64,000 nt of DNA from Christiangramia gaetbulicola (GTDB taxonomy: Bacteria > Bacteroidota > Bacteroidia > Flavobacteriales > Flavobacteriaceae), in assembly GCF_003054225.1 (NCBI RefSeq), contig NZ_QBKQ01000001.1:1178001-1242000 (forward strand), in the 5' to 3' direction. Every line of letters starts with the position of its first letter. Position 1 is the stretch's first letter. The position numbers were made by a program, and so were the translations under genes. Shown piece by piece: positions 16,900 through 46,649 of this stretch. The notes below the pieces were generated by a model. It did no database searches and was not told the origin of the DNA. It worked only from the letters and a program-made list of their open reading frames with translations.

Positions 16900-17817
16900 T
16901 CAATTATTTAATACCGACTTTATATCGGCCATCAATTCTTTTCCGCCGTTATTCAGTATTTCCAGAGCACAGTCTTTTCCTAAATTCTCGACTTGGGCTA
17001 CAGGTAGACTTTTCTCAACATCTATCTTATGCTTTCCATCTAAACTGAATAAAGCTCCATGAAAATGTATATGTTCATCCACGATCCTGGCTAAAGCTCC
17101 AATAGGCGCTGTACAGCCACCTTCGAGAACTTTCAGGAACTCACGCTCAACATGAACACATATCTCAGATTCTTTATGATTTAGCAAGGCTAAGGCTTCG
17201 CGGCAATATTCGTCATCCTCCATCGCAACAATAAGCATGGCGCCCTGCGCAGGTGCCGGGATCATCCAGTTGAGGTCGATGAAATTCTCTGGTTTTATCT
17301 CTATCCTTTCCAGGCCTGCAGCAGCGAAGATCGCCCCATTCCATTCGTTATCATCAAGCTTCTGCATACGGGTATTTACATTGCCGCGCAGATCCACTAC
17401 TTTATGATCTGGATATTTATGAAGCCATTGTGCTTTTCTTCTTAAACTTCCGGTAGCAATGGTGCCTTCTCCATTTTCTAAAAACTTTACGCCTTTATGC
17501 ACCAGGATATCTTTATTACTCGCCCTCTTCATCACCGCTCCTTCAACAATTCCCTTGGGCAAAGCCGTTGGAACATCCTTCATAGAATGTACAGCGATAT
17601 CAACTTCTCCCTTGATCATAGCGACGTCAAGGGTCTTGGTGAAAATCCCCGTAATTCCCATTTCGTATAGAGGCTGATCCAGATTTAGATCCCCGGTAGA
17701 TTTTACAGGAACCAGTTTAGTCTTATGACCTGTTTTTTCAAGAGCATTTTGTACGGTTTTGGCCTGCCAAAGCGCTAATTCGCTATCGCGGGTACCAATT
17801 CTTATCACTTTGCTCAT
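16900..17817 (-). CDS. hemC: Hydroxymethylbilane synthase (porphobilinogen deaminase)
   Basis: Polymerises four porphobilinogens to hydroxymethylbilane. IGTRDSELALWQA at the N-terminus, ATGSLRRKAQ and LRGNVNTRM (substrate-binding arginines) and EGGCTAPIGA, whose C235 carries the dipyrromethane cofactor, are all present. Length (305 residues) is normal. The start overlaps the hemA stop by 4 bases. Confidence 0.97.
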   Translation of the reverse strand: MSKVIRIGTRDSELALWQAKTVQNALEKTGHKTKLVPVKSTGDLNLDQPLYEMGITGIFTKTLDVAMIKGEVDIAVHSMKDVPTALPKGIVEGAVMKRASNKDILVHKGVKFLENGEGTIATGSLRRKAQWLHKYPDHKVVDLRGNVNTRMQKLDDNEWNGAIFAAAGLERIEIKPENFIDLNWMIPAPAQGAMLIVAMEDDEYCREALALLNHKESEICVHVEREFLKVLEGGCTAPIGALARIVDEHIHFHGALFSLDGKHKIDVEKSLPVAQVENLGKDCALEILNNGGKELMADIKSVLNN

Positions 17818-19070
17818 TTTGTAACTTCTTCTAAATGAAAGACCTTTTGTATAAGTTCAAGGCTTTCATCGGTGGTTTGGTTATCTTCCTTTAAATGATT
17901 GGCGAAGTGTTTCATGATCTTTTGAATGATCCTGTTACTTACGATCTCTGCCTGTTCATCATTAAAGTCTGATATCTTTTTACGTTGAAAATCGAGTTCG
18001 GCATCCTTCATCATTTTCAGCTTTTTCTTTAAAGCTTTAATGGTAGGTGCAAATTTTCTCGTTTCCAGCCACTGGTTAAAATCGTTTTCAACCTCGGCGA
18101 TGATCTCTTTTGCCTGCGGAATGAATTGTTTACGTCTTTCCAGGGTTTCATCTGTCATTTGAGATAGATGATCAAGATGGATCAATTTTACATTTTCCAG
18201 TTCCTGAACATCGTCTGAAACGTTCTTGGGAATAGAAAGATCAAGGATCAGAAGCTCTTTTTTCGGGTAAATAAGTTCCTTTGAAATGGTAGGATTATGA
18301 GCTCCGGTAGCAACGATAAGAATATCGCTGTTTCTTATTTCGGCCTGTAGATCTGCGTAATCTTTAACGATAAGGTTAAACTTACCAGCGATCTTTTCAG
18401 CTTTGTCCTTGGTACGGTTTATAAGGGTAATATGGTTGTTCCTGGTGTGTTTTACCAGGTTCTCACAGGTATTTCTCCCAATTTTACCGGTCCCGAAAAG
18501 AAGGATGTTCTTTTCAGAAATATTTTCAATGTGCTTTAAAATATACTGAACCGAAGCGAAGGAAACAGAAGTTGCTCCACTGGAGATCTCGGTTTCGTTC
18601 TTGATTCTTTTGCTTGCCTGTATCACCGCATTCACCAATCGCTCCAGGAATGCATTTACCAGACCTAATTTTTTAGATCTTACAAATGCAACTTTAAGCT
18701 GACTTATGATCTCGAAATCTCCCAGGATCTGACTGTCCAGTCCTGTTCCCACTCTAAATATATGTGAGATGGCTTGTTTGTTCTTATATACGTAAGCTAC
18801 TTTTTCGAATTCTTCTACAGTACCGTGTGTATGTTCGCAAAGTAATTTTATAAGCTGAAATGGGTGCTGCGCGAAACCATAGATCTCGGTTCGGTTACAG
18901 GTAGAAGTCACTAAAATACCGTCAATACCTTCATCTTTAGCCTGTTCCAGCAGTCTTTGCTTGGACTCTTCGGTAAGACTAAAATGGCCTCTTATCTCAG
19001 CATCGGCCTTCTTGTAACTTAAACCTATGGTATAAAAGTGTTTTCCTTTAGAAATGTGATAATCTTCCAT
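17814..19070 (-). CDS. hemA: Glutamyl-tRNA reductase
   Basis: Reduces glutamyl-tRNA(Glu) to glutamate-1-semialdehyde with NADPH; this commits glutamate to the C5 heme pathway. The catalytic cysteine is C58 in TSTCNRTEIYG. The NADPH-binding glycine segment LLFGTGKIGRN and the C-terminal dimerisation helices are present (418 residues). hemL is not in this window and must lie elsewhere. First gene of the minus-strand heme operon, with a TAATTTTG -7 element about 25 bases before the start. Confidence 0.96.
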   Translation of the reverse strand: MEDYHISKGKHFYTIGLSYKKADAEIRGHFSLTEESKQRLLEQAKDEGIDGILVTSTCNRTEIYGFAQHPFQLIKLLCEHTHGTVEEFEKVAYVYKNKQAISHIFRVGTGLDSQILGDFEIISQLKVAFVRSKKLGLVNAFLERLVNAVIQASKRIKNETEISSGATSVSFASVQYILKHIENISEKNILLFGTGKIGRNTCENLVKHTRNNHITLINRTKDKAEKIAGKFNLIVKDYADLQAEIRNSDILIVATGAHNPTISKELIYPKKELLILDLSIPKNVSDDVQELENVKLIHLDHLSQMTDETLERRKQFIPQAKEIIAEVENDFNQWLETRKFAPTIKALKKKLKMMKDAELDFQRKKISDFNDEQAEIVSNRIIQKIMKHFANHLKEDNQTTDESLELIQKVFHLEEVTK

Positions 19071-19095: not shown

Positions 19096-19103
19096 CAAAA
19101 TTA
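19096..19103 (-). promoter_or_regulatory. -7 element of the hem operon promoter
   Basis: TAATTTTG on the minus strand matches the Bacteroidota -7 consensus TAnnTTTG and would start transcription roughly 20 bases before the hemA start codon. No matching TTTG at the -33 position is seen at normal spacing. Confidence 0.5.
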
Positions 19104-19154
19104 ATATAAGCTTAAATCAAAAAGTAACGCTGGAGGCACTAAATATGTCGATAG

Positions 19155-19168
19155 ATGATAATTATCAT
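19155..19168. promoter_or_regulatory. Perfect 14-base palindrome between hemA and the AraC gene
   Basis: ATGATAATTATCAT is a perfect palindrome in the middle of the divergent intergenic region. The TGATAAT half resembles half of a Fur box, but the two halves overlap rather than being spaced by one base, so assignment to Fur is doubtful. It could be an operator for the neighbouring AraC regulator. Confidence 0.35.
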
Positions 19169-19198
19169 GAAAATAAGACCCAAAAGATGAAAATGCCC

Positions 19199-19206
19199 TA
19201 CTTTTG
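19199..19206 (+). promoter_or_regulatory. -7 element for the AraC regulator gene
   Basis: TACTTTTG, an exact match to TAnnTTTG, about 67 bases before the ATG. No clear -33 TTTG is present, so the promoter may need an activator. Confidence 0.45.
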
Positions 19207-19236
19207 TAGTAATGATAGCAGGTTTAGAGCGATTAG

Positions 19237-19253
19237 TTTAGATTGATTCTAAA
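19237..19253. promoter_or_regulatory. Candidate iron-type (DtxR-like) operator upstream of the AraC gene
   Basis: TTTAGATTGATTCTAAA is a near-perfect palindrome (TTTAGA/TCTAAA around TTGAT). It differs by a single base from the palindrome at the feoA start (46581-46597) and resembles the one on the TonB receptor promoter (42005-42020). It lies 20 bases before the AraC start codon, downstream of the -7 element, where a bound repressor would block transcription. Confidence 0.55.
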
Positions 19254-19272
19254 TAAATAAAAATTGCATTCT

Positions 19273-20163
19273 ATGGAAGATCACTTAAAAAATAACGCTG
19301 TAAGTATCTCTGAAGAGATAAAGATCGAAGATGGTTTTTTCATTCTTAAGTTTCAGAACGATACTTCAGATACCAAGCTAATGTCCAGGGAGATAGACAA
19401 TAGTTTTATCCAGTTTCATTTTAATGTAAAAGGCACAAGCAAGTTCCTTTTTAATAATGGCAGTTACGAATTGCCTTTAGCCGAAGAGAATTCATTATTG
19501 CTTTATAATCCGCAGAGAGACCTGCCTTTGAATGTTTCTTTGGCGCCAGAATCCTGGCTGATATCCCTGGTGATCTCGATCAAGAAATTCCATGCACTTT
19601 TCTCGCAGGAAGCAGATTATATCACTTTTTTAAGTTCAGACAATAAGGATAAGAAGTACTACAAGGACGCGGCGATATCTCCGTCTATGGCGGTGGTTTT
19701 GAATCAGTTAATGAATTTTAACCTAACGCCAAGTATTAAAAATTTATATTTTAAGGCCAAGGCTTTTGAATTGTTGAGTCTGTATTTCAATAAAGCAGAA
19801 AATCCCGACCTGGAGCAATGTCCGTTTTTAAGTGATGAAGAAAATATTAAAAAGATAAGGAGAGCTAAGGATATTGTTATTGCCCGGATGGCCGAACCGC
19901 CTTCGTTACAGGAACTTTCCGAAGAAATAGGCTTGAGCCTGAAGAAGCTAAAAGAAGGTTTTAAGCAGATCTATGGTGATTCTGTATATAGTTTCCTTTT
20001 CGATTATAAAATGGAATACGCCCGGAAGTTACTGGAAACCGGTGAGTATAATGTGAACGAAGTTGGTTTGAAAGTTGGCTATAGTACCGCGAGCCATTTC
20101 ATTGCCGGGTTCAAAAAGAAATTTGGAACAACCCCTAAAAAATATACGCTTTCAGTAAATTAG
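19273..20163 (+). CDS. AraC family transcriptional regulator of the heme locus
   Basis: A 296-residue cytoplasmic regulator. The C-terminal AraC domain (about residues 195-296) shows both helix-turn-helix units: SLQELSEEIGLSLKKLKEGF and NVNEVGLKVGYSTASHFIAGFKKKFG, ending TPKKY. The N-terminal part (about 20-150) looks like a sensory cupin-type domain, as in PchR-like regulators. I start at ATG (MEDHLKNN); a TTG three codons upstream is less likely. It is divergent from hemA and precedes hemH, so control of heme or iron genes is a good inference. An iron-type palindrome sits just before its start codon. Confidence 0.88.
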   Translation: MEDHLKNNAVSISEEIKIEDGFFILKFQNDTSDTKLMSREIDNSFIQFHFNVKGTSKFLFNNGSYELPLAEENSLLLYNPQRDLPLNVSLAPESWLISLVISIKKFHALFSQEADYITFLSSDNKDKKYYKDAAISPSMAVVLNQLMNFNLTPSIKNLYFKAKAFELLSLYFNKAENPDLEQCPFLSDEENIKKIRRAKDIVIARMAEPPSLQELSEEIGLSLKKLKEGFKQIYGDSVYSFLFDYKMEYARKLLETGEYNVNEVGLKVGYSTASHFIAGFKKKFGTTPKKYTLSVN

Positions 20164-20166
20164 GTG

Positions 20167-20880
20167 ATGCATAAATTCCTTTTCGCTTTCGTGTTTTCGA
20201 TATTGTTAAGTCTGGAAATGGCGGCTCAGAGGAGTGTACTAATATTTCATGAGACCGAGGACTACAGGCATGCATCTATAGAAAATGGTATTCAGGCCAT
20301 ACAGCAGATGGGAGATGAAAACAATTTCAAAACATTGGTTAGCCAGGATAGTAATTTCTTTATAGAGAATGATCTGAGTTCCCTGGATCTGATAATATTT
20401 CTGAATACCGAGGGAGATATTTTGGATATGGAAGAGCAAATGGCTTTTCAGAATTATATGGATAATGGCGGTAATTTCTTCGGAATTCATGCCGCAGCAG
20501 ATACAGAGCATGATTGGAGTTGGTACGGAGATCTTGTAGGCGCTTATTTTAACGGTCACCCTGAAATTCAGGAAGCCGAATTGAATATAAAAATGCCCCA
20601 GCATATGACCGTGGAACATTTACCTGAGCCATGGAAAAGAGTGGATGAATGGTATAATTATAAAGAAATATCCCGCGGTTTAAACATTTTTATGACCCTG
20701 GATGAGAGTACTTATGAAGGCGGTGAAAATGGCGATTTTCATCCTATTGCCTGGTTTCAGAATTACCGCGGTGGCGGAAAATCTGTTTATACAGGTCTCG
20801 GGCACACTTCAGAATCCTATTCAGAGCCGAATTTTCTGAAACATTTAAGCAGGTGTATCGAATTTGCGATGATGGATTAA
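20167..20880 (+). CDS. Secreted ThuA-like protein
   Basis: A 237-residue protein with a signal peptide (FLFAFVFSILLSLEMAAQ) and a ThuA domain, a glutamine-amidotransferase-like fold. Typical ThuA segments are present: FHETEDYRHASIENGIQAI, a central GGNFFGIHAAADTEHDW and the C-terminal PIAWFQNYRGGGKSVYTGLGHT with the conserved histidine. ThuA relatives act in trehalose or other sugar use; the role here is unknown. I prefer the ATG three bases after an in-frame GTG. It follows the AraC gene by three bases, so the two are co-transcribed. Confidence 0.82.
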   Translation: MHKFLFAFVFSILLSLEMAAQRSVLIFHETEDYRHASIENGIQAIQQMGDENNFKTLVSQDSNFFIENDLSSLDLIIFLNTEGDILDMEEQMAFQNYMDNGGNFFGIHAAADTEHDWSWYGDLVGAYFNGHPEIQEAELNIKMPQHMTVEHLPEPWKRVDEWYNYKEISRGLNIFMTLDESTYEGGENGDFHPIAWFQNYRGGGKSVYTGLGHTSESYSEPNFLKHLSRCIEFAMMD

Positions 20881-20966: not shown

Positions 20967-22001
20967 ATGAGTAAAGGTGTACTGATGGTTAACCTGGGTT
21001 CCCCCGATAGTACCGACCCAAAAGACGTGAAAAAATATCTTGGCGAGTTCCTAATGGACGAGCGCGTGATCGATGTTCCTTACTGGGCGCGTACATTGCT
21101 GGTAAAGGGAATTATCCTGAATACACGTCCTAAAAAATCGGCAGAGGCATACCAGAAGATCTGGTGGGAAGAAGGTTCACCGCTGATCGTACTTTCAGAA
21201 AGGTTGCAATCCAAGATCGATGATCAAACCTCGATTCCTATTGCTTTGGCTATGAGGTATGGAACGCCAAGTATATTGCAGGGATTACAGGAATTACACG
21301 ATAAGGGTGTAGATGAGGTATTACTTTTTCCGCTGTACCCTCAATTTGCTATGGCCACTACCGAGACAATCCTGGTGCTGGCAGAGGAGCTTAGAAAAGA
21401 GCATTTCCCTGAAATGAGTTTCACCACTGTTCCGCCTTTCTATAATCATTCAGATTATATAAGAACCCTGGGAAATAGTATCGCTGAATCCCTGAAGGAT
21501 GTGGAATATGAACATCTTCTTTTTTCATATCACGGTGTACCAGAAAGACATATTAGAAAGAGTGATATAACCAATTCACATTGTAAGATAGATGGCTCCT
21601 GTTGCCAGTCGGCTTCTACGGCGCACCAGTTCTGTTACCGTCATCAGTGTTACGAGACCACCCGTCTTGTAGCCGAATATCTTGGAATGAAACCTAATAC
21701 TTACAGCGTTTCCTTCCAGTCCAGGCTAGGATTTGATCCATGGTTAAAACCTTATACAGATAGAACTATTGAAAGATTTGGGAAGCAGGGGATGAAGAAA
21801 ATGGCCATTGTGACTCCGGCTTTCGTTTCAGATTGCTTGGAAACCCTAGAAGAGATCGCCATGGAAGGTGAAGAGATCTTCCACGAAGTAGGTGGAAAAG
21901 AATTTACCGTGGTTCCTTGTCTGAATGATAGGGAAGAATGGGTAAAAGTGCTTTCGAGATGGATCGATGAATGGGCTCATCAAAAGCCGGTCGAGGCTTA
22001 A
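20967..22001 (+). CDS. hemH: Ferrochelatase
   Basis: Inserts Fe2+ into protoporphyrin IX, the last step of protoheme synthesis. VNLGSPDS at the start, the catalytic histidine H189 in FSYHGVPERH, and FQSRLGFDPWLKPY and FVSDCLETLEEI (conserved acidic face) are all present; 344 residues is normal. It also carries a cysteine-rich stretch (CKIDGSCCQ...CYRHQCYET). Its stop codon overlaps the start of the MATE exporter by one base. Confidence 0.97.
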   Translation: MSKGVLMVNLGSPDSTDPKDVKKYLGEFLMDERVIDVPYWARTLLVKGIILNTRPKKSAEAYQKIWWEEGSPLIVLSERLQSKIDDQTSIPIALAMRYGTPSILQGLQELHDKGVDEVLLFPLYPQFAMATTETILVLAEELRKEHFPEMSFTTVPPFYNHSDYIRTLGNSIAESLKDVEYEHLLFSYHGVPERHIRKSDITNSHCKIDGSCCQSASTAHQFCYRHQCYETTRLVAEYLGMKPNTYSVSFQSRLGFDPWLKPYTDRTIERFGKQGMKKMAIVTPAFVSDCLETLEEIAMEGEEIFHEVGGKEFTVVPCLNDREEWVKVLSRWIDEWAHQKPVEA

Positions 22002-39613: not shown

Positions 39614-41971
39614 CTATTCGTGCAGATTTCCAAACTTGATCCCAAAGAAAAAAGTACGGGGCCTCGATGGTCCATAGATGAAATCTGAATCCCGTGTAGG
39701 GCCGGAGTCAAAGTCATCCTGGTATTCATTGAACACATTCTGGACACCCGTACTTAGATTAATATGAAAATTCTCCGTTATATCTATATGCTGACTAAGC
39801 TTAATATTCATGTCCCAAAAAGTTGGGGACTCTATTAAATCCAACATTCCATTAGGATTGATCACCCGTGGAATGGTCATTTTGCCGGTATAAGTTCCTG
39901 TAAGGTCAACCGCAAAGCCTTCGAAAGGGGAGGTGTTAACATTTAAGTAGCCGTAAAAATCAGGATTCCTTACAAATTCAGAGATAATAATATCCTGTTC
40001 TGAACCTGAATTTGGGTCTGCTTCAAATAGGATCTGGTCTTCTTTATAGATAGAACGCTGGTAAGTTCCACCAAGTTGAAAGGTTAGATCTGAATTTGGA
40101 GAAACACCGATTTCAAAATTCGTTCCCGTTACGTAGGCTCCACTTCCGTTCCGTACTTCTTTCAGGATAGAACCGTTGGGGAGGCTTGCACCAGTACTTA
40201 CGGTAGTGAATGGATCCTGAAGTTCGGTAAAGAACCCTTCCAGAAGAAAATCTGTTTGTAGTTTGTTTTTGCTGAAAGAATAATTGAAAGAGGCCGTGTA
40301 GGCATTCGAATATTCAGTTTCGAGATCGTTCGATAAGATCACGAACTGAGGTTCTCCACCTACCGAAGATATATGCAGGTCTTCATTAAAGGCTTGCGGT
40401 GCCCTGAAGCCTCTGGCATAGCCTCCTCTAAACTGTAATTCTTCGGTTATGTCATAAAGTATGGTGATCCTTGGGCTCAGAACTGTTTGATCGATAATGG
40501 AGAATCTGGAAATATCCTCTACAGCGTAATTCCCTGTAATATTTATGTGGTCGAGCCTTGCTCCTAATAAAGCGGTGAAATTTTCAACGGGTTTCCATTC
40601 ATATTGGGCAAAAGCGGCATAAGAATTCACTTTCTGATCTATATATCGATTATAACCGGCTATATCATCTTCGGTATTGCTATGATTATATTCTACACCT
40701 GTGGTAAGCACGTCATTGTTGGCAAAATTTCTTGTGAACTGAAAACCTCCCAGTAATGCGAGATCAGTTGTATTCCCATAGGCATTAGAAGCAGAAATGC
40801 TATCCTGTGCGGTACGGCCTCCACCAAGGCCGCCATAATAACTCTTTCGGTCTGTATGCTGACCGGAAACATAAACAGAATAATTATTGGTTCTTTCGAC
40901 GTTTGAAAAGTCGTAGGTAAGTCCGCCTATAAATGTATTATGATCCAGTTGTTCGGTAATATCTGTTAAGTGAGGAGGGAGTTCCAGGCGATCACCGCCT
41001 TTTCTATATTCTTTTAGTGCGGTGAGATCAAGGCTCAGTTTACTAAGTTCATCAGGTTTAAAAAATGCTTTCGCACCCAGCGTGTTATTGGTAAGTTCGG
41101 TTATCTCGGTAAAACCATCGCCATTGGCATCGAAGGCCGAGCGATCTCTGTTCATTCCATAAATAGTAACTCCACTATTCAGATCTTCGGCTACAACCGA
41201 ACCTGCAAAATTTAAAGTTCTATCGGGGATCTCGCCATCTATTAAAGAAAGATTACTAGCGATATTCCAGGTATTCAGGACCGGTTCTTTGGTAATAATA
41301 TTTATAGTACCGGCAATGGCGTTTGAACCGAATAGCGCAGATCCTCCACTGCGGACAACTTCTACCCGGTCCAGAATAGAGGTTGGGATCTGTTCTAACC
41401 CGTATACGCTGTTCAAAGCGCTGAACACAGACCGGCTGTTTATGAGGATCTGGGTGTAACTCCCGTCAAGACCGTTTAGCCTAACCTGGGTAAAACCGCA
41501 GTTCTGGCAATTGGTTTCCACACGTACTCCGGGTTGAAAATTTAAAGTTTCAGCAACCGAAGCGGACTGGGTAGCATTGAACAATTTCGAATTCAGTACG
41601 TTAACGATGACCGGAGCCTGCTTTAGGTCTATTCTGTTCCTGGTAGCACTAATAACTACCTGGTCCAGTCCAAGTGCATCCTCTTCCATTTGGATCGTTA
41701 ATAGTTCTGCTTCATAATCCCTTGGATCAATCTTTATTTTTCTTGTTTTAAAGCCGATCGCCTGGATAATAAGTTCTGCTTTTTCAGATTTAAGCTTAAG
41801 AGAGAACCTGCCATTAGGGTCTGCACTGGCGCCATGATTGGTTCCTGAAACAGAGATATTGGCAAATGGAACTGCCCGGCCATTGTGAGATACCAGTCCT
41901 TCGATTTCAGTGGACTGAGCTATCGCCGTTGAACAAAAAATACTTAATAATATACCTGCTAAAAGCTTCAC
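39614..41971 (-). CDS. TonB-dependent receptor with CxxC plug motif, probable metal uptake
   Basis: A 785-residue outer-membrane receptor. After a signal peptide (cut near AIAQS) comes a carboxypeptidase-regulatory-like domain (about 22-95), then the plug (about 115-230) with GGSALFGSNAIAGTINI, and the 22-strand barrel ending in an aromatic residue region typical of outer-membrane proteins (TFFFGIKFGNLHE). The plug has NCQNCGFTQVRLNGLDG with C155 and C158, an unusual pair that could bind a metal or a metal complex. The GTG start is needed for the signal peptide. It is divergent from a DtxR-family regulator whose candidate operator lies on its promoter. Iron or manganese complexes are the likely substrates. 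Confidence 0.9.
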   Translation of the reverse strand: MKLLAGILLSIFCSTAIAQSTEIEGLVSHNGRAVPFANISVSGTNHGASADPNGRFSLKLKSEKAELIIQAIGFKTRKIKIDPRDYEAELLTIQMEEDALGLDQVVISATRNRIDLKQAPVIVNVLNSKLFNATQSASVAETLNFQPGVRVETNCQNCGFTQVRLNGLDGSYTQILINSRSVFSALNSVYGLEQIPTSILDRVEVVRSGGSALFGSNAIAGTINIITKEPVLNTWNIASNLSLIDGEIPDRTLNFAGSVVAEDLNSGVTIYGMNRDRSAFDANGDGFTEITELTNNTLGAKAFFKPDELSKLSLDLTALKEYRKGGDRLELPPHLTDITEQLDHNTFIGGLTYDFSNVERTNNYSVYVSGQHTDRKSYYGGLGGGRTAQDSISASNAYGNTTDLALLGGFQFTRNFANNDVLTTGVEYNHSNTEDDIAGYNRYIDQKVNSYAAFAQYEWKPVENFTALLGARLDHINITGNYAVEDISRFSIIDQTVLSPRITILYDITEELQFRGGYARGFRAPQAFNEDLHISSVGGEPQFVILSNDLETEYSNAYTASFNYSFSKNKLQTDFLLEGFFTELQDPFTTVSTGASLPNGSILKEVRNGSGAYVTGTNFEIGVSPNSDLTFQLGGTYQRSIYKEDQILFEADPNSGSEQDIIISEFVRNPDFYGYLNVNTSPFEGFAVDLTGTYTGKMTIPRVINPNGMLDLIESPTFWDMNIKLSQHIDITENFHINLSTGVQNVFNEYQDDFDSGPTRDSDFIYGPSRPRTFFFGIKFGNLHE

Positions 41972-41987
41972 GTAGAGTTATTTTATG

Positions 41988-41995
41988 CAAAGCTA
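41988..41995 (-). promoter_or_regulatory. -7 element of the TonB receptor promoter
   Basis: TAGCTTTG on the minus strand matches TAnnTTTG, 17 bases before the GTG start. The candidate operator at 42005-42020 lies between it and the expected -33 region. Confidence 0.55.
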
Positions 41996-42004
41996 TAAAA
42001 TTAA

Positions 42005-42020
42005 TTTAGGCTAATCTAAA
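42005..42020. promoter_or_regulatory. Candidate DtxR-type operator between the TonB receptor and the regulator
   Basis: TTTAGGCTAATCTAAA is a palindrome (TTTAG/CTAAA arms around GCTAAT) resembling the TTAGG..CCTAA core of DtxR/IdeR boxes. It overlaps the receptor promoter and lies just upstream of the regulator promoter, so one site could control both genes. Confidence 0.6.
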
Positions 42021-42023
42021 AAA

Positions 42024-42054
42024 TTGATTAATTAAATTTAAAAATGTATTTTTG
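42024..42054 (+). promoter_or_regulatory. Promoter of the DtxR-family regulator and ZIP genes
   Basis: TTG, 20 bases, then TATTTTTG, an exact -7 match, 19 bases before the ATG. Confidence 0.55.
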
Positions 42055-42073: not shown

Positions 42074-42730
42074 ATGTTCAGCTTATCTGAAGAAAATTAT
42101 CTCAAGGCCATTTTTCATCTGGAAACAGCTTATAAAAGTGGAGTTAGTACGAACGCCCTCGCGGAAGAAATGCAGACCAAGGCTTCTTCTGTGACCGATA
42201 TGATTAAGCGTCTGTCTGATAAAGACCTGGTGAATTATAAAAGGTATCAGGGAGTTAAACTGAGTGAAGCGGGAAAGGATGCGGCGATAGAAGTCATAAG
42301 AAAGCATCGCCTCTGGGAGGTTTTTCTGGTAGAAAAATTAGGTTTTAACTGGGATGAGGTTCATGAAGTTGCCGAGCAACTGGAACATATCAAGTCTGAA
42401 AAGCTTACCAACGAACTGGATAAATTCCTGGAATACCCAAAAAGGGACCCGCATGGAGATCCTATTCCAGATGCTAAAGGGAATTTTGCCGTGGCCAACC
42501 GTGTGCTTTTATCTGAACTTAAAAAAGGAGAAATCGGTATTTGTGTGGGTGTTAAAGATTCTTCAGCCGAGTTCCTGCAATACCTGGACAAGAACAATAT
42601 TTCTCTTGGTAAGGAGATAGAGGTTAAAGAAAAAGAAGATTTTGACCAGTCCATGCTGATAAAGATGGACGGAAAGGAATTAAGGATATCCAACCAGATA
42701 TCAGCGAACTTATATATAAAAACAACTTAG
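42074..42730 (+). CDS. DtxR/MntR family metal-dependent transcriptional regulator
   Basis: A 218-residue regulator with three domains: N-terminal winged helix (about 1-65, LSEENYLKAIFHLE and TKASSVTDMIKRLSDKDLVNY), metal-binding dimerisation domain (about 66-140, with ligands in HRLWEVFL, EVHEVAEQLEHI and PHGDP) and a C-terminal SH3-like FeoA domain (about 150-218). With bound Fe2+ or Mn2+, relatives repress metal-import genes. It sits between a TonB receptor and a ZIP transporter, both probable targets, and the TTTAG..CTAAA palindromes in this window are candidate binding sites. Iron or manganese selectivity is undecided. Confidence 0.93.
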   Translation: MFSLSEENYLKAIFHLETAYKSGVSTNALAEEMQTKASSVTDMIKRLSDKDLVNYKRYQGVKLSEAGKDAAIEVIRKHRLWEVFLVEKLGFNWDEVHEVAEQLEHIKSEKLTNELDKFLEYPKRDPHGDPIPDAKGNFAVANRVLLSELKKGEIGICVGVKDSSAEFLQYLDKNNISLGKEIEVKEKEDFDQSMLIKMDGKELRISNQISANLYIKTT

Positions 42731-42731
42731 A

Positions 42732-43553
42732 ATGGATATTATTTTAGATTATTTTGAATCTCTGGATCCTGTTTTTGCGGCTTTTCTGGCGACACTTTTT
42801 ACGTGGGGTCTTACCGCATTAGGAGCCTCCCTGGTTTTCCTATTTAAAGGGATGAACCGTGCTTTCTTTGATGGAATGCTTGGTTTTACCGGTGGAGTGA
42901 TGGTAGCAGCAAGTTTCTGGAGTCTTCTGGCTCCAGGAATTGAGATGAGTCCAGGAGAAGGTTTCGTAAAGGTGATTCCGGCAGTAGTTGGTTTTGGTTT
43001 AGGAGCTCTTTTTATTTTTGGACTGGATAAAGTGTTACCGCACTTGCATGTGAATTTCAAAATGAGCGAATCTGAAGGTATAAAAACACCTTGGCATAAG
43101 TCGGTTTTATTAACTCTTGCCATCACGCTTCACAATATTCCGGAAGGTCTTGCGGTAGGAGTTCTTTTTGGTGGTGTAGCTGCTGGATTTGAAGGCGCCA
43201 GTATCGGTGGGGCGGTTGCTCTGGCGATTGGGATAGGACTTCAGAATTTTCCTGAAGGTTTCGCCGTAGCCATGCCTTTAAGAAGATTGGGCCTTAGTCG
43301 TTGGAAAAGTTTTAATTACGGGCAACTATCGGCTATCGTGGAACCCGTGGCCGCTGTTCTGGGTGCCTGGGCTGTACTTACTTTTCAGCCTATACTTCCT
43401 TATGCCTTATGTTTTGCTGCTGGAGCAATGATCTTTGTGGTTGTGGAAGAAGTGGTTCCGGAAGCCCAGCAGGGTAACTTTACAGATATTTCTACCATGG
43501 GATTTATTGGCGGATTCATGGTGATGATGACCCTGGATGTAGGGCTGGGATAA
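42732..43553 (+). CDS. ZIP family divalent metal transporter
   Basis: A 273-residue inner-membrane protein with eight predicted helices. The metal-pathway motifs of bacterial ZIPs are present: HNIPEGLAVGVLFGG in helix 4 and QNFPEGFAVAMPL in helix 5, plus VVEEVVPEAQ. Relatives such as ZupT import Zn2+, Fe2+ or Mn2+. It starts one base after the DtxR-family gene, so it is co-transcribed with its likely regulator, which favours iron or manganese as substrate. Confidence 0.92.
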   Translation: MDIILDYFESLDPVFAAFLATLFTWGLTALGASLVFLFKGMNRAFFDGMLGFTGGVMVAASFWSLLAPGIEMSPGEGFVKVIPAVVGFGLGALFIFGLDKVLPHLHVNFKMSESEGIKTPWHKSVLLTLAITLHNIPEGLAVGVLFGGVAAGFEGASIGGAVALAIGIGLQNFPEGFAVAMPLRRLGLSRWKSFNYGQLSAIVEPVAAVLGAWAVLTFQPILPYALCFAAGAMIFVVVEEVVPEAQQGNFTDISTMGFIGGFMVMMTLDVGLG

Positions 43554-44239: not shown

Positions 44240-46342
44240 CTATTTCAGCAATTGAAATGCAATGAGGGCCACTACATAAGCAAAACCACTCATTATAATT
44301 AATTGCAATAATGGCCATTTCCAGGTATTGGTTTCCCGTTTTACAATAGCCAGGGTACTCATACATTGCATGGCAAAAGCATAGAACAATAAAAGGCTGA
44401 CCCCGCTGGCAAAAGTAAACAGAGGACCTCCCAGAACCGGATTGGTTTCAGCGGCCATTCTATTCTTTATGGTTTCTTCTTCATCACTACCAACACTATA
44501 TATCGTAGCCAGTGTGCCAACAAAAACCTCTCTTGCGGCAAATGAACTAATAATGGCGATACCGATCTTCCAGTCGTAACCAAGTGGAGCCACAGCAGGC
44601 TCGATACCTCTACCCATGATACCGATATAAGAATTCTTCAGTTTAAAAGATGCGATCTCTTCATCCAGTTCATCCTGAGGAATACTGTTTTCAGTAGTAT
44701 AATTTGAAGAAACGATCTCTTCGGCATTTTCAAAATTATCTCCCGGGCCATAACTTGCCAGAACCCAAAGTATCACTGAAATAGCTAAAATGATCTTTCC
44801 GGCTCCAAATACAAAAGACTTGGTTTTTTCCACCACATTGATCGCGACATTCTTGATCATAGGCAGTTTATAATTCGGCATTTCTATCACGAAATAGCTC
44901 TTGGTCTTGGTTTTCATGATCTTATTAAGGATCCAGGCTGAAAATATGGCCATTCCAAACCCTAAAAGATAAAGGATCATTAAGGTGATTCCCTGTAAAT
45001 TAAGTCCAAGGAAAGCTTTGTCTGGTATTACCAGAGCGATAATGATCAAATAAACGGGTAACCTCGCCGAACAGGTTGTAAAAGGCACTACCAGGATGGT
45101 GATAAGCCTTTCTTTCCAGTTTTCGATATTTCTTGTAGCCATTACTGCCGGTATCGCACAGGCGGTACCAGATACCAGTGGCACAACGCTTTTTCCGCTT
45201 AAACCAAATCGCCTCATGATACGATCCATAAGGAAAACAACCCGGCTCATATAGCCAGATTCTTCAAGAATGGAAATGAAAAGGAACAGGAATGCGATCT
45301 GCGGAATAAAGATTACGATCCCACCTAAACCGGGCACGATCCCTTCAGATATTAGATTTGTAAATGAACCTGAAGGTAAAGTATCCTTGGTCCACTCGCT
45401 TAATGAAGCGAAAGCGGCATCGATCATATCCATAGGATAACTCGACCAGCTGTAGATAGCCTGGAAAATCAATAATAATATTCCGAAGAAGATAAAATAA
45501 CCCCAAACCTTGTGTGTAAGGATCCGGTCCAGTCTGGATCTTAAGTCTGTCGCGGCATTTTTATCAACTTTCATGGTTTCCCTAAGGACTCCATTAATGA
45601 ATTGATACCTCAAAATGGTTTCCTTCTGCTGAAGTCTTTTAAGATCGCTTATGGATTTGGTGCTGAAATCAGAGTTCTTCTTTAGTTCTCCACGGTTAAT
45701 GTTTCCAAAGTTCACATCCTGGGTGATCACCAGCCATAATTTGTAAAGAGACTGGTTAGGAAACGCTTTTCTTAAGTTTCCGAAATATTCCGGGTCTATT
45801 ACCGATGCATTTACGCAGGGCTCGATAGGAATATGTCTGTAATTAAGTATAAGTTCTTTAAGATAATCTATGCCCATTCTTTTACGGGCGCTAATAAGAG
45901 CGATCTTCGTCTTAAGACGTTCCTCCAGAAGTTCTACATCAAGGCTGATTCCCTTTCTATCCATCCTGTCGGCCATATTAATGGCAAGAATTGTTGGAAT
46001 ACCAAGATCTTTTATTTGGGTAAAAAGTAGAAGATTCCTTTTCAGGTTTTCAACATCGCTAACTACTACCGCGACATCTGGAAAGTCCTTGTCGTTCTTA
46101 TTGAGTAATAGTTCGATAACAACATTTTCATCAAAAGAAGATGCGTTAAGGCTATAAGTTCCGGGAAGGTCAAGAATATGGGCTTTCAGGCCCCGGGGAA
46201 GTTTACAGATCCCTTCTTTTTTTTCAACCGTAATACCGGGATAATTACCAACCTTCTGGTTAAGGCCTGTTAACTGATTAAATACAGAAGTCTTGCCGGT
46301 GTTGGGATTACCAATTAAAGCAACATTAATTTGCTTACCCAT
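44240..46342 (-). CDS. feoB: Ferrous iron transport protein B
   Basis: Inner-membrane Fe2+ transporter with an N-terminal GTPase domain. G1 is GNPNTGKTS (residues 11-19), G3 DLPGTYSL and G4 NMAD; the second half has gate motifs and about 10 membrane helices (RVVFLMDRIMRRFGLSGKS, PLVSGTACAIPAVMATR, PFTTCSARLPVYL). Length 700 is normal. It begins one base after the feoA stop, so feoA-feoB and the Cys-rich peptide form one operon. Confidence 0.97.
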   Translation of the reverse strand: MGKQINVALIGNPNTGKTSVFNQLTGLNQKVGNYPGITVEKKEGICKLPRGLKAHILDLPGTYSLNASSFDENVVIELLLNKNDKDFPDVAVVVSDVENLKRNLLLFTQIKDLGIPTILAINMADRMDRKGISLDVELLEERLKTKIALISARKRMGIDYLKELILNYRHIPIEPCVNASVIDPEYFGNLRKAFPNQSLYKLWLVITQDVNFGNINRGELKKNSDFSTKSISDLKRLQQKETILRYQFINGVLRETMKVDKNAATDLRSRLDRILTHKVWGYFIFFGILLLIFQAIYSWSSYPMDMIDAAFASLSEWTKDTLPSGSFTNLISEGIVPGLGGIVIFIPQIAFLFLFISILEESGYMSRVVFLMDRIMRRFGLSGKSVVPLVSGTACAIPAVMATRNIENWKERLITILVVPFTTCSARLPVYLIIIALVIPDKAFLGLNLQGITLMILYLLGFGMAIFSAWILNKIMKTKTKSYFVIEMPNYKLPMIKNVAINVVEKTKSFVFGAGKIILAISVILWVLASYGPGDNFENAEEIVSSNYTTENSIPQDELDEEIASFKLKNSYIGIMGRGIEPAVAPLGYDWKIGIAIISSFAAREVFVGTLATIYSVGSDEEETIKNRMAAETNPVLGGPLFTFASGVSLLLFYAFAMQCMSTLAIVKRETNTWKWPLLQLIIMSGFAYVVALIAFQLLK

Positions 46343-46343
46343 A

Positions 46344-46574
46344 TTAGCCTATTAATTCAATTTCTATTAGTAAAGCGGTTTCTTTTCTTATGGCCAGATG
46401 ACTTCCATTTATATTGAGATACATTGGATCATGGAATGGCGCAGTTTGAACCAGTTCTACCTCGTTCCCGGGAAGGCAACCCATTTCAAGCAGCTTTAGA
46501 GGTACCATATCTGCCGAGAATTCTTTGATGATTCCCCGCTGACCTCGTTTTAAATTAGCAACCGTCACCTTCAC
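46344..46574 (-). CDS. feoA: Ferrous iron transport protein A
   Basis: A 76-residue SH3-like cytoplasmic partner of FeoB, with LKRGQRGIIKEF, LKLLEMGCLPG and the terminal LAIRKETALLIEIEL strands. The GTG start is preceded, within 7 bases, by the TTTAG..TAAA palindrome, and a strong promoter lies directly upstream. First gene of the feo operon. Confidence 0.94.
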   Translation of the reverse strand: MKVTVANLKRGQRGIIKEFSADMVPLKLLEMGCLPGNEVELVQTAPFHDPMYLNINGSHLAIRKETALLIEIELIG

Positions 46575-46580
46575 TTTTTA

Positions 46581-46597
46581 TTTAGATTGATTTTAAA
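46581..46597. promoter_or_regulatory. Candidate iron-type operator at the feoA start
   Basis: TTTAGATTGATTTTAAA lies between the -7 element and the GTG start, over the expected transcription start. It differs in one base from the palindrome upstream of the AraC gene in the heme region. That placement fits repression. Confidence 0.6.
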
Positions 46598-46602
46598 CAA
46601 GG

Positions 46603-46632
46603 CAAAAGTAATGGATTTTAGACCAATACAAA
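46603..46632 (-). promoter_or_regulatory. Promoter of the feo operon
   Basis: On the minus strand TTTG, 18 bases, then TACTTTTG, an exact Bacteroidota promoter, ending about 28 bases before the feoA GTG. It is the same TTTG/18/TACTTTTG form as the rseP promoter. Confidence 0.75.
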
Positions 46633-46649
46633 AGTTAAAGGCCAAATTA

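Follow-up and report, generated by a model that had tools for sequence, protein, structure and literature searches.

Three look-alike palindromes in a 64,000-nucleotide stretch of the Christiangramia gaetbulicola genome (the window; positions 1178001-1242000 of contig 1) very probably represent two operators with similar arms. The boxes at feoA and in the leader of araC, an AraC-family regulator gene beside hemA, carry seven bases between TTTAG and CTAAA (N7) and would be Fur operators. The box between a TonB-dependent receptor gene and a DtxR-family regulator gene (dtxR) carries six (N6), and would be the operator of the MntR-like protein encoded next to it. The sequences, their conservation, the two spacing classes, and the genes that accompany them are observed; for both boxes we infer the binding protein, the metal, and repression through binding.

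All three palindromes lie where an earlier sequence-only reading had placed them (Table 1), and the feoA and araC sites, which have TTTAGAWTNAWTCTAAA in common, do differ by a single base. That reading took the sites for operators at promoters, and their conservation at orthologous promoters argues for this. The feoA start codon comes 6 bases past the end of its site, and the first ATG of the araC ORF 19 bases past the end of its own; the third site falls inside the 102-base gap between the receptor and dtxR start codons. Relative to the promoter elements, the feoA box follows the -7 element by 5 bases and covers the likely start point; the araC box follows its -7 element by 30 bases; and the 16-bp N6 box lies 9 bases upstream of the receptor -7 element, with 3 bases between its end and the dtxR -33 element. 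(The promoter pattern search found no TTG at the usual distance from the receptor -7 element.) Such placement suggests repressors. A further candidate operator, at 46617-46633, was rejected: it overlaps the -33 to -7 stretch of the feoA promoter, and its half-site is variable in relatives.

Table 1. Genes, predicted operators, and promoter elements in the window
Feature	Position	Strand	Remarks
hemA (glutamyl-tRNA reductase)	17814..19070	-	First of the heme gene run hemA-C-D-E, hemF, hemB
hemA -7 element (CAAAATTA on the + strand)	19096..19103	-	18 bases before the repeat 1 core
Direct repeat 1, AAAAGTAACGCT	19120..19131	+	Candidate AraC-protein site
araC -7 element, TACTTTTG	19199..19206	+	Pattern match alone
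Fur-type box (N7) in araC leader, predicted	19237..19253	.	19-mer 19236-19254; sequence, conservation, spacing, profile
AraC-family regulator gene (araC), beside hemA	19273..20163	+	First ATG of ORF at 19273
Direct repeat 2, AAAAATAACGCT	19288..19299	+	Within the araC ORF here; repeat 1 is 168 bp away
ThuA-family gene	20164-20880		Between araC and hemH
hemH (ferrochelatase)	20967..22001	+	Downstream of araC and the ThuA-family gene
TonB-dependent receptor	39614..41971	-	Start at 41971
TonB receptor -7 element, TAGCTTTG	41988..41995	-	
16-bp (N6) box, predicted MntR-type operator	42005..42020	.	Sequence, conservation, spacing, mntH linkage
dtxR promoter, TTG...TATTTTTG	42024..42054	+	Pattern match alone
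DtxR-family regulator (dtxR), MntR-like	42074..42730	+	Start at 42074; C-terminal FeoA domain
ZIP-family metal transporter	42732..43553	+	3' of the DtxR-family gene
feoB	44240..46342	-	PF02421, PF07664
feoA	46344..46574	-	Start GTG 46574; PF04023
Fur-type box (N7) at feoA, predicted	46581..46597	.	19-mer 46580-46598; sequence, conservation, spacing, profile
feoA promoter, TTG-N18-TAnnTTTG	46603..46631	-	-7 element 46603-46610; pattern match alone

The closest known counterpart of the N7 box comes from Riemerella anatipestifer, a member of the same order. In the available portions of PMC5609570, the predicted Fur box of this species is the 19-bp palindrome ATTTAGAATTATTCTAAAT, and four promoter fragments were gel-shifted; several of the boxes fit the consensus poorly, and one, sprT, lies on a shifted fragment. 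According to the available portions of PMC10434265, a fur mutant shows a 4-5-fold increase of feoA and feoB, which have a Fur box in front. (A different, E. coli-type Fur box is cited for Riemerella in the accessible text of PMC7976709.) Compared with ATTTAGAATNATTCTAAAT, N counting as a match, the araC site agrees at 17/19 positions and the feoA site at 16/19. Both systems have the box at feoAB; here it stands also on the AraC-family gene beside hemA, whereas Table 5 of PMC5609570, in its accessible part, has no araC/hemA site.

The C. gaetbulicola genome contains three Fur-family genes: one encodes a Fur protein (PF01475, 2.0e-27, C2:904246) whose best solved relatives are Fur proteins, and the other two, its paralogues, score weakly in every model. 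The N7 box might then be read by a PerR- or Zur-like paralogue instead of the main Fur, and Bacillus subtilis PerR, acting on hemA, provides a precedent. We consider this unlikely given the weak scores of both paralogues; the two genomes (G307 and G024) that have a single Fur-family match each and still keep the feoA match; and the same box being the Fur box in Riemerella, as the available text of PMC5609570 has it. Fur itself remains the preferred reader.

Genomes without a detected DtxR-family protein were also compared. PF02742 has no match in 58 of 294 genomes of the order; among 20 of these that were listed, 12 are genomes of 0.3-0.6 Mb, and examination of the other eight found a FeoB match in seven and Fur in five. 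A profile built from 14 distinct sites (feoA and araC of the genus, araC of Flavobacterium) scores 20.1, 18.8, 13.8, 12.2, and 11.1 bits upstream of feoA in the five Fur-positive genomes, values reached by 0, 0, 0, 3, and 10 of 500 resamples: two strong matches and three weak ones, with two of the five genomes (G024 and G041) sharing a genus. The two genomes with FeoB and neither PF02742 nor Fur score 6.2 and -1.7 bits (18 and 263 of 500 resamples). These Fur-less genomes, which lack a feoA box, belong to one genus with PF02742 likewise undetected, and the weakest Fur-positive case (10 of 500) barely outdoes one of the Fur-less cases (18 of 500). Since feoA matches, strong or weak, occur in five genomes without detected PF02742, the N7 box there does not follow the presence of a DtxR-family gene, and apparently no protein of that family is needed for it.

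Genome-wide motif scans yielded no enrichment over reversed controls: the 19-mer with up to 3 mismatches has 12 matches (control, 15), and the N6 pattern 45 (control, 100). Five of the 12 N7 matches precede feoA, araC, a sufA-type gene (at 6 bp), apbC-nifU (at 30 bp), and a DUF4856 gene (at 75 bp); of the remaining seven, three fall within ORFs, and the other four are at or close to genes that have no obvious part in iron metabolism. The set is suggestive of a Fur regulon, and the matches at the sufA-like gene and apbC-nifU would suggest iron control of Fe-S assembly. These two matches, at loci L212 and L205, precede a sufA-like gene, with a SufB-type gene next, and apbC-nifU. An N7 match and an N6-like match occur together in the DUF4856 gene promoter (L208, L220; C3:346663-346746), at a distance of about 70 bp.

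The N6 box keeps different company. In 26 Flavobacterium-type loci, whose mntH operon carries dtxR (mntH then dtxR in L148), 25 have it 68-73 bp before mntH, and 24 have it where the TonB receptor gene starts, on the start codon assigned by the ORF finder or slightly within the gene; the MntH and receptor families were confirmed in L148. Occurrence at the mntH and receptor starts ties the N6 box to a manganese-type regulon, and from this linkage an MntR operator is its most plausible reading. One part of the earlier assignment thereby survives: the site beside dtxR probably does belong to the neighboring DtxR-family protein, N6 boxes being found at dtxR/mntH operons. (Many of the Flavobacterium mntH-dtxR gaps in L124-L148 contain stretches complementary to each other, for example AGGTTCTAAG...CTTAGAACCT, which may form hairpins.)

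The DtxR-family protein is 93% identical to its Christiangramia sediminis counterpart. We call it MntR-like because its E-x-x-E-H motif is that of ScaR and SloR but its score with the nearest MntR model (NF047407), 159.3 bits, falls below the curated cut-off of 350. Like PgMntR and the structure hits ScaR, SloR, and IdeR, this system combines a FeoA-type carboxyl-terminal domain, a palindrome at its own operon, and linkage to mntH or a ZIP transporter and a TonB receptor. The IdeR/DtxR operator arms are TTAGG...CCTAA, unlike the TTTAG-N6-CTAAA found here. Where ScaR and SloR have Asp (EDYLK), the protein has Asn (ENYLK), a pattern of the type present in 80/80 dtxR loci; this Asp position is a metal ligand in BsMntR. 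The accessible portion of PMC4805248 likewise gives it as a metal-ligand position of BsMntR, and describes the Porphyromonas homologue PgMntR as binding the promoter of its own operon and not that of feoB1.

Spacing sets the two boxes apart. Upstream regions were compared for 30 feoB loci, 110 dtxR loci (109 scored, L089 being left out of the spacing scores), and 24 same-genus araC loci (L194 and L195, AraC homologues of other families, being left out of the counts). The best spacing is N7 at feoA in 29/30 loci, with one tie, and at araC in 24/24; it is N6 at dtxR in 29/29 same-order loci. For 80 further dtxR loci, the best spacing is N6 in 55, N7 in 6 (with scores of 7-8 of 10), and tied in 19; 23 of these 25 N7-or-tied loci are Flavobacterium-type, with dtxR after mntH. 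The profile of either class reaches at most 2.7 bits on the window sites of the other class and 20.3-24.3 bits on its own, with window sites or near relatives among the training sets. Most likely, then, the look-alike palindromes are two operators with similar arms and different spacers. The missing base that the sequence-only reading had put down to possible variation is real, and marks a separate class. In one locus (L084), dtxR is preceded by two boxes, one N7-like (TTTAGAATTAGTTTAAA) and one N6, a possible joint Fur/MntR promoter.

That reading had instead proposed one DtxR-family repressor for all three sites, which would have to tolerate 6 or 7 spacer bases and would link iron uptake and the TonB receptor with heme control. 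Identical arms, a DtxR-family gene adjoining the third site, the double boxes of L084, and the paired matches at the DUF4856 promoter are what such a protein might leave behind; however, the spacing classes are unmixed among the same-order loci scored, the profile cross-scores are low, the feoA box is present without a detected DtxR-family gene, and PgMntR, in the part of PMC4805248 available, does not bind the feoB1 promoter. A single repressor is thus quite improbable, and the two-operator reading is preferred.

Loose matches to either pattern stay at the level of shuffled or reversed controls. With at most one mismatch, TTTAG-N7-CTAAA has 5 matches in the window (6.1 expected) and TTTAG-N6-CTAAA has 7 (5.7 expected); the 17-mer with at most 3 mismatches gives 22 forward and 26 reverse matches in the whole genome, no excess over the reversed-pattern control (25 and 21). 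At greater stringency, two exact-match counts are notable: TTTAGATTGATTYTAAA occurs twice in the 3.64 Mb genome, at feoA and araC (control, 0), and perfect TTTAG-N7-CTAAA once, at araC (control, 16). With loose counts at chance level, counting is unusable as support, and conservation provides the real evidence of function. The feoA site is present in 23/23 same-genus loci, with versions of varying strength in seven loci of other families (L053-L059); the araC site is kept in 24/24 same-genus loci, and the dtxR site in 29/29 scored loci. As far as sequence comparison can tell, this shows the three to be functional, conserved sites. Chance resemblance in AT-rich intergenic DNA, with which the unremarkable frequency of loose matches agrees, has a negligible prospect of being right, for all three sites are kept at orthologous promoters across genera, and the 80 dtxR loci (1.60 Mb) hold 31 N7 matches against 0 for the reversed control and 101 N6 matches against 3.

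The araC box forms part of a fixed layout in the divergent hemA/araC region: hemA -7 element; direct repeat 1; araC -7 element; Fur box; and direct repeat 2. The repeats lie 167-168 bp apart in 24/24 Christiangramia and 20/20 Flavobacterium loci with hemA found (relaxed pattern). Of these 44 loci, 43 have a Fur box that begins 114-115 bp past repeat 1. The counts leave out 60 of 80 loci, those in which the search pattern found no hemA. The strict repeat pattern fits 40 loci; the hemA -7 element is 18 bases before repeat 1 in every one of them, and the araC -7 element is at 76-77 in 39. Spacer identity between the two genera is 0.38-0.46 (15 pairs compared). For comparison, the N6 box, where it is near dtxR, begins 46-92 bases before the dtxR match. 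Christiangramia has repeat 2 within the araC ORF, whereas in Flavobacterium it immediately precedes the ATG; its conservation is therefore not explained by constraint on the protein. A small ORF behind the fixed spacing was considered and rejected: in the 23 loci tested, no forward frame is free of stops over the 150 bases that follow repeat 1.

One locus (L132, 15694-18331) has two inserted genes that displace araC from hemA. The repeats beside hemA stay 167 bp apart, the Fur box and araC -7 element beside hemA have decayed, and visual inspection upstream of the displaced araC showed no Fur box. (Loss of araC from this locus was rejected, as tblastn finds the gene, moved.) L194, the homologue of another family, has two repeat copies 19 bp apart. 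A second palindrome, ATGATAATTATCAT, at 19157-19170, is partly conserved in the genus and was not seen in the Flavobacterium sequences compared. The structure model of the AraC-type protein is weak (mean pLDDT 62.1, pTM 0.43), with a strand-rich amino-terminal domain and a helical carboxyl-terminal domain.

We infer from these features that the direct repeats may be AraC-protein sites, perhaps joined in a loop. This suggests a tentative model for the hemA/araC region as an iron-gated DNA loop for heme synthesis, in which the AraC-type protein would bind both AAARTAWCGCT repeats, 167-168 bp (about 16 helical turns) apart, with one on the hemA -33 region and the other at the start of its own gene, bending the region into a loop; Fur, between the repeats, would set production of the AraC-type protein by iron supply. 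The model draws support from the layout, unchanged in two genera despite 38-46% spacer identity (two genera make up the comparison, and spacing varies little within a genus in any case), and from L132, in which the repeats persist at their 167-bp distance despite decay of the Fur box and the araC -7 element. Looping between araO2 and araI is familiar from E. coli araBAD/araC. That region, like this one, has a divergent AraC-family gene and repeats spaced by near-whole helical turns, one of them near -33/-35; unlike it, the postulated loop here would span 167-168 bp, with a Fur box between the repeats, and would serve heme genes.

Under the preferred two-operator reading, iron-loaded Fur would sit over the probable start point of feoA and over the leader of araC, blocking transcription, and iron shortage would release both, with ferrous-iron import and the AraC-type regulator made together. 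The MntR-like protein with its metal, probably manganese, would bind the N6 box and repress the receptor gene along with its own operon, including the ZIP transporter. The sequence-only reading was partly right to join iron uptake with heme control: feoAB and the AraC gene beside hemA have one operator type, N7, and iron control of this gene is likely, through the predicted Fur box and not through DtxR. Against this, Fur repression of an operon leading to hemH is not the obvious direction (hemH follows araC in L148 also).

Fur and MntR operators are known kinds; what is new is the predicted Fur box on the AraC-type gene beside hemA, together with its fixed layout. No report of such a box as an iron-to-heme route was found among the open PubMed Central papers listed in our searches, and through it iron supply could act on heme synthesis in a way that can be tested. 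More broadly, iron (Fur) and manganese-type (MntR) operators in flavobacteria appear to share their arms and to differ by one spacer base, so that two metal regulons will be mixed up by any annotation that looks at the arms alone.
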